Shown in pieces: positions 24,311-57,501 of a DNA stretch of 64,000 bases. The position numbers and the translations under genes are program-made. The notes beneath the pieces are model-generated. The model was not told the DNA's origin, ran no database searches, and saw only the letters and a list, made by a program, of their open reading frames with translations. Within the stretch, counting starts at the first letter, position 1. Each line of letters begins with the position of its first letter. Origin of the DNA: a bacterium (GTDB lineage: Bacteria; Cyanobacteriota; Vampirovibrionia; Gastranaerophilales; Gastranaerophilaceae); the NCBI GenBank assembly GCA_017941035.1, contig JAGAXG010000003.1, positions 1-64,000 on the forward strand. The letters are read 5' to 3'.

Positions 24311-25738
24311 ATGCTAAAACGCAGTCACAGAGCCAATTTCTGGGGAGGGGTATTTTTAGTTAATCTCCTTCAGCCAAGGAATTTGAACGATAATAATTGT
24401 CATTCTGAGTTTATTTCAGAATCTAACCCTGATACACAGGGATTGAATTGGAAGTTTTTAGAAGTTTCCTCCCTTATGAGGGAGGAATTAAAGGTGGGTG
24501 CCGGTAGTTCAAATTATATCCCTAACGGGACGAGACCCCTCCCAACCCTCCCCAGCCGGAGAGGGCTATCTACTTCTCTCGTAAGGAAACGCGTTGCTTT
24601 TACTTTAGCAGAGACATTAATCGCATTAGGCATAATCGGAATAGTGGCAGCGTTAACTTTACCGACATTAATTGCGACGATTTCAAATATAGTTAAAGAA
24701 AATCAAATGGCTGTATTTGAGCGCAAACTTGGCAAAGGTGCTGATTTATTAAATATAGACAATGGTATCGGCCCATATTATGATACTACAGAACAGTTTG
24801 TAAGACGTTTATCCGAAAATTTAAAAATTGTAACAATCTGTGGAAAAGATAATTTAAAAAACTGCTTACCGTATGAAACAATTCAACAGGATGATGTAGA
24901 ACCGTTCAAAGTAGATGATATTAAAACATCTGCATTTACAGGGATTGATACTGACAAATATTTGGATGCTGCTGGTTTTGTACTGGGTGACGGTACACCA
25001 ATGATACTTGCTTATATGAATAAAGCAAATTGTCCTGTATCAGACCCTGATTCTTTGGAATATAAAGGTCAGAAAAAAGATGCAAGGTCTTTAAATACAA
25101 GATGCATAGCTGGGTTTTACGATATAAACGGAGCAAAAGGTCCTAATAAGTTTGGAAAAGATATTGTGCCTTTTAATGGGGTTGCAGGGCTTGCTGATGG
25201 TTGGATATCTTTTGCAGGATTGAAAATAACGCCTCCATTTGTCCCAGATCGAATAAAGAGATCTGATTATTGTACAGGATCAGGGTATAAATGGGAAGTT
25301 AAATCTAATTATAAAACAAAATATGGCATACAGAGTTGTTGTTTGTGGGATGAGTGTGAAAGAGACGGTGATGCTTGGGTTGGGGCAATGGTTCAGTGTA
25401 TAGATGCAGGTGGACATGTGGCTTCTTTGGAAGATTTAGCTAAATTAGCGACATATCTTTTTGATGCTCCAAATGATATTGCTGTTTCAGAAACCTATTC
25501 AGGAACTTTGAATAAATCAAGACTAGGAAATCTTTTTGCAGGTTTAGGTGATGGTACAGATTGGATGACAATTTACTCAAATTCTGAAAACTATTCTTAT
25601 AGTGTATCTGCACGTTCTTTTAATCAAAATTATTTTTTAAATCCTGCTAATACTCCTTCAATAACGTTTATAATTAATGCTGAACGTGCCGGGAATGATC
25701 AAGGTCGATTATTTAAAGCTTTTTGTGTAAAAAATTAA
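24311..25738 (+). CDS. prepilin-like protein with a 96-residue leader
   Basis: The methylation/cleavage motif KRVAFTLAETLI begins at residue 92, so the leader is about 96 residues instead of about 10. Its first 20 residues (MLKRSHRANFWGGVFLVNLL) are conserved in the gene at 56349. The next 70 read like translated intergenic repeat (CHSEFISES; PLPTLPSRRG), and the DNA contains a CCTCCCTTATGAGGGAGG palindrome. The C-terminal 200 residues form a Cys-containing pilin head homologous to the fragment at 46919-47416. Ribosome binding site and promoter are good, so the long start is credible. It is unclear whether such a leader is processed. Confidence 0.8.
   Translation: MLKRSHRANFWGGVFLVNLLQPRNLNDNNCHSEFISESNPDTQGLNWKFLEVSSLMREELKVGAGSSNYIPNGTRPLPTLPSRRGLSTSLVRKRVAFTLAETLIALGIIGIVAALTLPTLIATISNIVKENQMAVFERKLGKGADLLNIDNGIGPYYDTTEQFVRRLSENLKIVTICGKDNLKNCLPYETIQQDDVEPFKVDDIKTSAFTGIDTDKYLDAAGFVLGDGTPMILAYMNKANCPVSDPDSLEYKGQKKDARSLNTRCIAGFYDINGAKGPNKFGKDIVPFNGVAGLADGWISFAGLKITPPFVPDRIKRSDYCTGSGYKWEVKSNYKTKYGIQSCCLWDECERDGDAWVGAMVQCIDAGGHVASLEDLAKLATYLFDAPNDIAVSETYSGTLNKSRLGNLFAGLGDGTDWMTIYSNSENYSYSVSARSFNQNYFLNPANTPSITFIINAERAGNDQGRLFKAFCVKN
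24397..24590 (+). repeat. dispersed repeat inserted in prepilin leader
   Basis: The stretch contains the CATTCTGAG..CAGAATCT arms also seen at 18274-18336, a CCTCCCTTATGAGGGAGG palindrome and a CCTCCCAACCCTCCCC segment, and is more GC-rich than its surroundings. It has no counterpart in the otherwise similar leader at 56349, so it is best explained as a repeat inserted in frame. Confidence 0.6.
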
Positions 25739-41431: not shown

Positions 41432-42532
41432 ATGGCAAATGGTTTTTATATTGAAGATTTTTTGAAACAATCAGTATCAGTTGGAGCATCTGATATACAT
41501 TTATGTGAAGGAGAACGCCCTTCAATAAGGGTTTCAGGACAAATTATGAGAATTAATGTACCTCCTTTAACAAATGAAGATATGGAGTTTGTTATAAGGA
41601 CGGTCGCTCCTTCTCATTTAAAGGATAGAATTTCAAGATTTTTTGATATTGATTTTTCCTATGAAATAGAAGGAGTTTCACGTTTTCGTGTAAATATGAG
41701 TCATCAGTTAGGGAAAAATGCAATGGTATTTCGTGCAATTCCTTACCATATTAAGAATTTTAAAGAATTGGGATTGCCAAATACCTTGGAAGAATTTGCA
41801 AGATTCAATAATGGTCTTATTTTGGTAACAGGACCTACCGGTTCAGGTAAATCAACAACTATAGCATCTTTGATAGATTATATAAATGCTACTTTTTCAA
41901 AACATATAATTACTGTTGAAGATCCCGTTGAATTTATATATACGAATAAAAAGTCAATTGTTTCTCAAAGGCAGTTGTTAATAGACACTCCATCATTTTC
42001 AGATGGTATAAAATATGCATTACGACAAGATCCTGATGTTATATTTATTGGTGAAATTCGTGACAGAGATACAATAGAAGCGGCTTTAAATGCAGCAGAG
42101 ACTGGTCACTTAGTAGTTTCAACCATTCATACAAATGATGCTGTACAAACAGTAACAAGAGTTATAAATCTTTTTGAACCCGCTGAAAGAAACTTTATTA
42201 GAAGTCAAGTGGCATCAACTTTAAAAGGTACGATTGCTCAAAAACTTATCCCTTCCAAGGATGAAACTTCAAGGTATCCTGCTCCGGAAATCCTTGTTGT
42301 TACACCTACAGTACAAGATTTTATTGAAAAGGATGAACTTGATAAAGTTTATGATTTAGTAAGAAACGGATCATTTAATAATATGACTACTATGAATATG
42401 TCTTTGTACAGATTGTATAAAGATGATAAAATTACAAAAGAAATGGCTTTGGCTTATTCGGATAACAAGTCGGAATTGGAACAATTAATTAGGGGAGTTT
42501 ATCACGGTACCGGGGTAAACAATAATCAGTAA
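41432..42532 (+). CDS. pilT: type IV pilus retraction ATPase PilT
   Basis: The 366-residue hexameric ATPase has a PAS-like N-domain (ASDIHLCEGERPSIRVSG), Walker A GPTGSGKST, the Asp box TVEDPVEF, Walker B RQDPDVIFIGEIRD and the His box HLVVSTIHTNDA. It powers pilus retraction. The last third is more divergent than usual PilT. It lies 3 bases upstream of recO and divergent from comEC. Confidence 0.92.
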   Translation: MANGFYIEDFLKQSVSVGASDIHLCEGERPSIRVSGQIMRINVPPLTNEDMEFVIRTVAPSHLKDRISRFFDIDFSYEIEGVSRFRVNMSHQLGKNAMVFRAIPYHIKNFKELGLPNTLEEFARFNNGLILVTGPTGSGKSTTIASLIDYINATFSKHIITVEDPVEFIYTNKKSIVSQRQLLIDTPSFSDGIKYALRQDPDVIFIGEIRDRDTIEAALNAAETGHLVVSTIHTNDAVQTVTRVINLFEPAERNFIRSQVASTLKGTIAQKLIPSKDETSRYPAPEILVVTPTVQDFIEKDELDKVYDLVRNGSFNNMTTMNMSLYRLYKDDKITKEMALAYSDNKSELEQLIRGVYHGTGVNNNQ

Positions 42533-56272: not shown

Positions 56273-56348
56273 TTGCAAAAATCAAGAGATAGTTTATAAT
56301 AAGAATATAAATGTTATGGTATAATTTAAATTGAAAGGAGATATAACA
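56273..56348 (+). promoter_or_regulatory. pilin-family promoter and leader, copy C
   Basis: TTGCAA at 56273-56278 and TATAAT at 56295-56300 are 16 bases apart, with the shared TAGTTTATAATAAGAATA block (56290-56307). A GAAAGGAGA ribosome binding site lies ahead of the leader ATG. It follows immediately after the upstream terminator, so the gene has its own transcript. Confidence 0.75.
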
Positions 56349-57501
56349 ATGCTAAAATGCAGTCGCAGAGCCAATTTCGGGGGGGGGGGGCTTTTTAGCT
56401 AATCTCCTTGACAAAAAGAAAACAGCATTTACCTTAGCTGAAACTTTAATATCTTTGGCAATAATTGGTATAATTGCCGCAATGACCTTGCCTTCATTGA
56501 TGCAAAATCTTGGTGAACGTTCAAATTCCGAACGAGCAGCAAATACTGTTCAAAAAATAGCACAATCTATGGATCTAATGCGTGTAGATGGTGAACTGCT
56601 TACTACCTACCAAACAACAGATCAATTTGTGGATGAATTGGCAAAACATTTAAAAATTGTAACTCGATGTGATAAGAATCATTTGACAAACTGCTGGCCT
56701 GTTGAAAAAGTATTGACAGGCAGCGGGGATGAGGTTAATGTTGCTGATATCAAAACAGGAGAGCAATTGGGATTGAATACAAAAACGGATAATGTGGGCC
56801 TTGTTTTAGCAACGGGTGTTCCTATCATTTTAAATTACAATCCTGATGCAGGGATAGTTAGTGACACAGATACAACAACTCAAAATAAAATAAAACTTCC
56901 TGCAGGGTGGGGAAGATACAAAGAATATGTATGGGGTAATAATACTATGGGTTCTGTTGCATTTGTAATGGATGTGAACGGCCCTCGTGGACCTAATAAA
57001 GGTATTGAAACTATTGAGAATAAATTGATATACCATGATATAAGAAGTTTTGGCGGTGCTTCTTTACAGGGAGATAAATGTGATGGATGCTTAACATCTA
57101 CGGCTTATGGAAAATATAAATTATTAAATGATGGAGCTGTTTGGACTTCTTCAATTGATTGTTCTGATAACGCAAATAAAGATTATTGCGATGAGCAAAC
57201 CGGCGCTAGTAAATGGGCAGCTGCGAATAAAGCTTGTCAAGATTTAGGATTATCATTACCTTGGAAAACTGGAGAGGATGAAGCTTTGCCTGCGGGTAAT
57301 TTTGTAAAATTTAATAAAGAAAATCCTGATTTATTGCCAAGTGACGGTTGTGTTTGGACTGCATATAAAAAAGATGATGGTAGTCATCTTTCATTCCCTT
57401 TAAATTATAAAAATAAATTGATGAAGCTAATGTCTAGTATGGGTTCTCAAAGTGCAAGAGGTCAAAATGACGAGTGCTATGCACTATGCGTTGAAAAATA
57501 A
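56349..57501 (+). CDS. prepilin-like protein, off-frame through a 12-G tract (possible phase-variable gene)
   Basis: Translation from ATG 56349 (MLKCSRRANF) enters a run of 12 G and stops at TAA 56400 after 17 residues. Removing one G gives GGGGFLANLLDKKKTAFTLAETLI, aligning exactly in length with the leader of the 24311 gene. The pilin frame as it stands has no ATG, GTG or TTG ahead of the cleavage motif; the first is TTG at 56455, inside the hydrophobic helix. With 11 or 14 G the product would be a prepilin of about 384 residues. The head region has many Cys pairs and VMDVNGPRGPNK. Confidence 0.8.
56379..56390 (+). repeat. poly-G tract (12 G), candidate slippage site
   Basis: The longest homopolymer of G I saw in this AT-rich window, placed ten codons after the prepilin start codon. 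The 11-G length restores frame; 12 G switches it off. An assembly or sequencing miscount is the main alternative. Confidence 0.9.

Follow-up and report, generated by a model that had tools for sequence, protein, structure and literature searches.

The window, the 64-kb stretch of DNA analysed here, belongs to a genome of 1.8 Mb in 48 contigs from Candidatus Gastranaerophilales, a gut Melainabacterium. At the locus of interest a clear ribosome binding site, AAAGGAGAT, lies 5' of an ATG at 56349, and ten codons beyond this ATG stands a run of 12 G at 56379-56390. The frame opened by the ATG encodes only 17 residues, MLKCSRRANFGGGGLFS, before a stop codon at 56400-56402. The pilin frame is the +1 frame, which runs from an FTLAETL motif at 56428 to a stop at 57501. 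It contains no ATG, GTG or TTG upstream of FTLAETL, and the earliest start listed for it, a TTG at 56455, falls within the mature part. A first-pass annotation of this DNA had described the 12 G ten codons past the ATG, the 17-residue leader, the ribosome binding site and the intact but start-less downstream frame, and reading of the frames agrees with it on each; that the poly-G run sets the frame of the window pilin is confirmed. The features discussed below are as follows.

24311-25738, + strand: paralog with the same leader and an interrupted G run (TGGGGAGGGG), in frame (ON), with a repeat-like insertion in the leader
41432-42532, + strand: PilT/T2SSE-family ATPase gene (PF00437, 168 bits at C36:41450-42295)
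56335-56342, + strand: Shine-Dalgarno sequence AAGGAGAT, 5' arm of a hairpin predicted by folding, complementary to 56402-56409
56349-56402, + strand: leader ORF as assembled with 12 G, reading MLKCSRRANFGGGGLFS and then TAA, the OFF frame
56351-56357, + strand: GCTAAAA, inner 5' arm of the predicted hairpin, pairing with TTTTAGC at 56393-56399
56379-56390, + strand: G12 tract that sets the reading frame, one of the 16 G9+ tracts of the genome
56402-56409, + strand: anti-Shine-Dalgarno sequence ATCTCCTT, 3' arm of the predicted hairpin, from folding and complementarity statistics
56428-57501, + strand: intact out-of-frame pilin ORF (FTLAETLISLAIIGIIAAM..., 357 amino acids and stop) with a type IV prepilin N-terminal motif

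The G12 tract is the sole run of seven or more G or C across the window, in which about 8e-5 runs of this length would be expected from base composition (31.5% GC). The promoter, also held to be intact by the first-pass annotation, found no support, since a scan returned 6 promoter-like sites against 5.9 expected in shuffled sequence. The proposal that the leader equals that of the gene at 24311 in length holds only in part. The two leaders are alike up to ...FLVNLL, but they are unequal overall because in the latter (24311-24600) the G run is separated from FTLAETL by about 70 additional codons, with the look of an inserted repeat (CHSEFISES...). Other insertions occur at the same point in the leaders of L036, L029 and L225, and this spot may thus be an insertion hot spot.

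The window pilin passes the cut-offs of PF07963 (24.6 bits, cut-off 21.2) and TIGR02532 (18.2 bits, cut-off 16.3), and an AlphaFold model places a helix at 3-53, albeit with low confidence (mean pLDDT 49). A prepilin peptidase match in the genome lies just above its threshold (PF01478, 26.9 bits, cut-off 26.5), and four matches to the pilus ATPase family PF00437 exceed theirs, one of them inside the window. By these matches the ORF has the N-terminal features of a type IV pilin or pseudopilin, and the pilus machinery is present in the genome; assembly of a surface filament has not been shown.

The leader cassette and its distribution

The first 30 bases of the leader recur in 29-30 copies in the source genome (reversed control, 0). 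In almost every copy a G run and then C(A)TTTTTAGCTAATCTCCTT come next, and a pilin follows in most of them. All 16 G9+ runs found on the two strands lie within this shared leader, and most precede pilin frames. Paralog tracts with near-identical flanks span G10 to G13. Three of the 14 readable long tracts are in frame (L019, L020 and L023), and the other 11, the window gene included, are out of frame. In the in-frame alleles L020, L023 and L033 the leader is fused to the pilin unbroken. Paralogs with short or interrupted runs are in frame in five cases (24311, L033, L034, L035 and L058) and otherwise out of frame or broken. L009 and L031 have an interrupted tract and are OFF, and their pilin frames are still intact; L024 is truncated, and L028, L032 and L036 combine interrupted or short tracts with broken pilin frames. 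Among OFF copies of this genome about 6 long-tract genes are intact to 1 broken, versus 2 to 5 for interrupted tracts (p near 0.1; the truncated L024 and copies at contig ends were not counted as intact), which is only suggestive of faster decay behind interrupted OFF tracts.

Some copies are unusual in other ways. L037 (G000:C36:82797-82826, beyond the window) is a leader copy with an interrupted G run that precedes a non-pilin frame (MAGIGQARMYEIQQQN...). Contigs C17 and C19 of the source genome (L011 and L012) terminate exactly at the G run, and in a second genome, G001, the tract of L174 (G001:C62) contains an assembler gap (NN). Such ends and gaps are expected if tract lengths were mixed in the sample or if G runs fail in sequencing.

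Within the family, a pattern search detected a run of G8 or longer followed by FTLAE in 84 of 334 genomes, representing 13 of 41 genera (reversed control, 0). A phylum-wide sample gave matches in 57 of 386 genomes, all within the family of the window genome, and the pattern was absent from about 200 sampled genomes outside it. Relatives carrying such genes are labelled Candidatus Gastranaerophilales or Melainabacteria MAGs. In a named collection, which apparently holds one genome per species and so permits no strain comparison, nearly all of the matches listed bear the labels Gastranaerophilales, Melainabacteria or Scatousia or are gut MAGs, and a few labels look wrong (Fibrobacter, Fusobacterium, Muribaculaceae). 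A single G8-FTLAE match, L345 (MFRL01000072.1, Melainabacteria GWF2_37_15), is an outlier among the matches listed, apart from the gut Gastranaerophilales records, and suggests that the device may have an earlier origin or may have moved by transfer. No copies of the leader/pilin device were found in IMG/VR viral contigs, and a search of a contig collection with the window gene's own protein as query found no relative. At least about 90 pilin-like matches were counted in each of G005, G007, G013, G033, G038 and G043, all species of the genus. Two of these pilin-rich genomes, G005 and G007, lack a G8 leader by the pattern search; large pilin repertoires thus also exist without the poly-G switch.

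The leader sequence differs by species, for example CACCGTTAAAGCTCTCC in G001 and TAACTTTTTAAGCTCC in G038, and the layout is common to them: Shine-Dalgarno sequence, ATG, about ten codons, G run, anti-Shine-Dalgarno sequence and FTLAE. In the window gene the predicted hairpin encloses the G12 tract through AAGGAGAT/ATCTCCTT together with GCTAAAA/TTTTAGC. A perfect stem of at least 6 including the Shine-Dalgarno core was present at 123 of 242 loci, versus 8 and 16 in downstream control regions. The number fell to 71 when each Shine-Dalgarno sequence was paired with the leader of another genome, so that Shine-Dalgarno sequence and leader are matched preferentially when they come from one genome, as in GGAGAG/CTCTCC, TAAGGAGCT/AGCTCCTTA and GGAGGTTAA/TTAACCTCC. 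Leaders folded one by one give only weak z-scores (-1.85 in the window, near 0 for some species), and the case for the hairpin rests on the locus-wide complementarity count instead. Its role in translation is inferred.

Reading frame, tract length and pilin integrity

Frames were compared at 273 loci from 75 genomes, 242 of them with a clear Shine-Dalgarno sequence and ATG. Start codons were set by an automatic rule, and systematic sampling covered G8+ loci only. Tract lengths range from 8 to 13, with one tract of 15. The in-frame loci number only 30 of the 242 (binomial test against one third, p 1e-13), and when each genome contributes one locus 8.7 of 62 are in frame where 20.7 would be expected (p=0.001). 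P-values across genomes are guides only, the genomes being related. A smaller first set, with 7 of 30 in frame, had allowed frames to be random at one third; this was rejected on the larger set. Leaders open in frame at 15 of 20 loci with no G run longer than 6, versus 28 of 246 where the longest run is 8 or more.

The direction of the shift required for the ON state depends on length. Genomes with a usual length of 10 or less mostly need the gain of one G (27 versus 9 genomes), and those with a usual length of 11 or more mostly need the loss of one (2 versus 18 genomes, in the same order). The coupling of length and frame per genome is supported by a Fisher test (p=3e-6), an optimistic value because the genomes are related. 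Lengths are near-constant in some genomes (28 of 36 at G11 in G001, 8 of 8 and 6 of 6 at G10 in CALUVV and CAG:439, 10 of 11 at G8 in G038) and variable within others (G000, G043 and G066). All eight CALUVV loci fall in frame 2, although the distances on either side of the tract vary modulo 3, and this shared offset points to selection on the offset itself. In G001 loci of equal tract length fall in frames 0, 1 and 2.

The out-of-frame genes do not resemble debris. At least 80 codons follow FTLAE in 104 of the 107 pilin frames behind G8+ tracts, and seven ortholog pairs of equal tract length that are OFF in both species have dN/dS values of 0.12-0.33, from which it is concluded that such genes are live. 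A further pair, L275/L299, gave 0.50 at a protein identity of only 36%. The first-pass annotation had favoured an off-switched live gene over decay, and the many paralogs and relatives that combine an out-of-frame tract with an intact pilin under purifying selection support it. So do alleles with matching flanks that differ in G number, with the predicted ON/OFF flips. L293 (G11, ON) and L337 (G10, OFF) differ by one G and have equal distances on both sides of the tract, as do L366 (G12, OFF) and L398 (G11, ON). L236 (13, ON) and L237 (12, OFF) also flip frame, but their leader lengths differ. Across two species, L252 and L387 show no mismatch over about 600 bp around a tract that reads G10A in one and G9 in the other, and L255 and L402 are 99.5% identical, with the difference at and just past the tract, non-G bases included, and an OFF versus ON prediction. 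Tract length is equal in eight ortholog-like pairs, about half, despite 5-20% divergence. The differing pairs thus indicate that tract length changes over evolutionary time and that the predicted state flips with it, without giving a rate per generation. The window gene, which the first-pass annotation saw singly, is one member of a family-wide repertoire.

Proposed slippage in DNA and competing explanations

The reading favoured here is slipped-strand phase variation of a large, mostly OFF type IV pilin repertoire, to which a probability of roughly 0.7 is assigned; switching within one population has not been observed. Under this model the length of the poly-G run inside the prepilin leader would switch translation of each pilin. 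Tracts would gain or lose G's through slipped-strand errors during DNA replication. With most of the assembled lengths, ribosomes starting at the strong ATG would meet a stop soon past the tract (OFF), and a single step, to 11 G in the window gene, would join leader to pilin (ON). The hairpin between the Shine-Dalgarno sequence and the leader may damp initiation further. The usual length in each species lies one slip away from ON, so that at any moment the majority of copies would be OFF and any one pilin would be made by a minority of cells, giving many surface combinations. The tract, the frame, the intact pilins under selection, the differences in length between paralogs and orthologs with their flips, and the spread across the family are all observed. 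Three features expected of a poly-G contingency locus are thereby present: a long tract within the reading frame, far beyond chance; a length that decides between short leader and full protein, the rest of the gene being intact; and length variation, with a change of frame, among related alleles whose flanks otherwise match. That slippage occurs in DNA, at a rate high enough for reversible switching in a single clonal population, is inferred. Since no switching has been seen within one population, DNA slippage is the likeliest mechanism and not the only possible one.

If the out-of-frame copies were simply pseudogenes, as the truncated L024 and the broken frames of L028, L032 and L036 might suggest, neither the near-universal integrity of pilin frames behind G8+ tracts nor the low dN/dS of OFF/OFF pairs would be expected, and decay is thought very improbable. 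Scarcely any weight, less still, is given to a regulatory upstream ORF, in which the pilin would start at a non-canonical leader codon and the G run would serve as a Shine-Dalgarno-like element. Poly-G could pair with the anti-Shine-Dalgarno sequence of 16S rRNA and the leader ORFs do end near the pilin start, but the window gene offers no ATG, GTG or TTG from tract to motif, the in-frame alleles L020, L023 and L033 fuse leader to pilin, and where the G run is short, most leaders are open in frame from the same Shine-Dalgarno sequence and ATG. Miscounting of G's, with the true length in frame everywhere, has more to recommend it, as G runs are hard for Illumina sequencing owing to the 'G's end' effect (PMC9187656), two source contigs end at the tract and a G001 tract holds an N gap. 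It remains a slim prospect, given that out-of-frame tracts occur in dozens of assemblies from different projects and in both directions (+1 and -1), that loci of equal length in the same genome (G001) sit in different frames, and that the L255/L402 difference includes non-G bases.

A more serious competitor, though an unlikely one, places the slippage in RNA: RNA polymerase or the ribosome would slip on a fixed OFF tract and yield a low, steady level of pilin from every copy. The near-constant length per genome, the ortholog-like pairs, of which about half do not differ in length, the strong excess of out-of-frame loci, the constant CALUVV offset and the few interrupted OFF tracts with intact genes all suit it. 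Against this, DNA lengths differ among paralogs and orthologs with the same flanks, all three frames are found, in-frame alleles among them, the shift needed is not the same in all species (+1 or -1), and the tract lies inside the hairpin and not downstream of it. RNA-level slippage remains possible, suits the species of near-constant length and is not excluded without reads. The same constancy, together with the many equal-length pairs, counts against phase variation, which then requires either that slippage settle into a narrow equilibrium or that selection act on length; further points against it are the in-frame share, well under one third, and L009 and L031, interrupted and OFF yet intact. 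A stronger form of the phase-variation model may be entertained, tentatively and at somewhat less than even odds, as a tuned family-wide lottery: selection would hold dozens of tracts one slip from ON, with the direction of slip matched to length and coupled to the hairpin at the ribosome binding site, and each cell would draw a small random subset of its pilins.

Known systems and the biology of the family

The closest proven case is the pilin G-tract of Bifidobacterium breve UCC2003, a gut commensal in which a run of about 11 G lies between the secretion signal and the rest of the pilin (PMC9187656). Out-of-frame lengths are frequent in cultured cells and the mouse gut enriches for in-frame ones; deep sequencing, which measured G11/G12 mixtures at the tract, showed replication slippage to be the mechanism (PMC9187656). 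The parallels are the gut commensal lifestyle, the G run within the start region of a pilin and the prevalence of out-of-frame lengths. However, the B. breve pili are sortase-assembled LPXTG pili encoded by two operons of a Gram-positive organism, whereas Gastranaerophilales, of a cyanobacterial sister lineage, have type IV pilin-like genes at dozens of separate loci, and the hairpin of Shine-Dalgarno and anti-Shine-Dalgarno sequences around the tract is a feature of theirs.

Campylobacter jejuni carries 12-29 G/C tracts of at least 7 per genome, which switch reading frames at frequencies from 0.004 (G8) to 0.02 (G11) (PMC4965091). Its genome is likewise AT-rich, with long G runs that are conspicuous and similar in length and number. 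Its phase-variable loci are varied, in contrast to the window genome, where all tracts lie in one gene class behind a shared leader. In Neisseria gonorrhoeae, pilC is a type IV pilus gene turned ON and OFF by frame shifts at a G run in the region coding for the signal peptide; PilC is a pilus-associated adhesin present in one or two copies. The frame switch in the signal region is alike, but the window genome has a repertoire of pilins. Leader-peptide repeats are found with Pil1 of Streptococcus gallolyticus. Phase variation of this pilus has been described (PMC3894217). The systems are alike in that leader repeats control a pilus in combination with RNA structure. They differ in that Pil1 is governed by attenuation-like transcriptional control upstream of the operon, whereas the repeat of Gastranaerophilales sits within the coding frame of the pilin itself and the predicted structure extends over the ribosome binding site.

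Little is known of the surface biology of Gastranaerophilales, which are common in the gut and uncultured, and the literature searched yielded no account of phase variation in them. Poly-G phase variation is itself a known device in other lineages. Pilin genes in such genomes will appear truncated or start-less, which should be borne in mind in annotation. If the model is correct, a quarter of the sampled genomes of the family bear a poly-G-switched type IV pilin repertoire, with dozens of loci in some, and these bacteria probably switch many surface fibres by the gain or loss of single G's. The state of the switch would be readable in existing metagenome reads without the need for culture, so that surface variation in gut commensals can already be put to the test.
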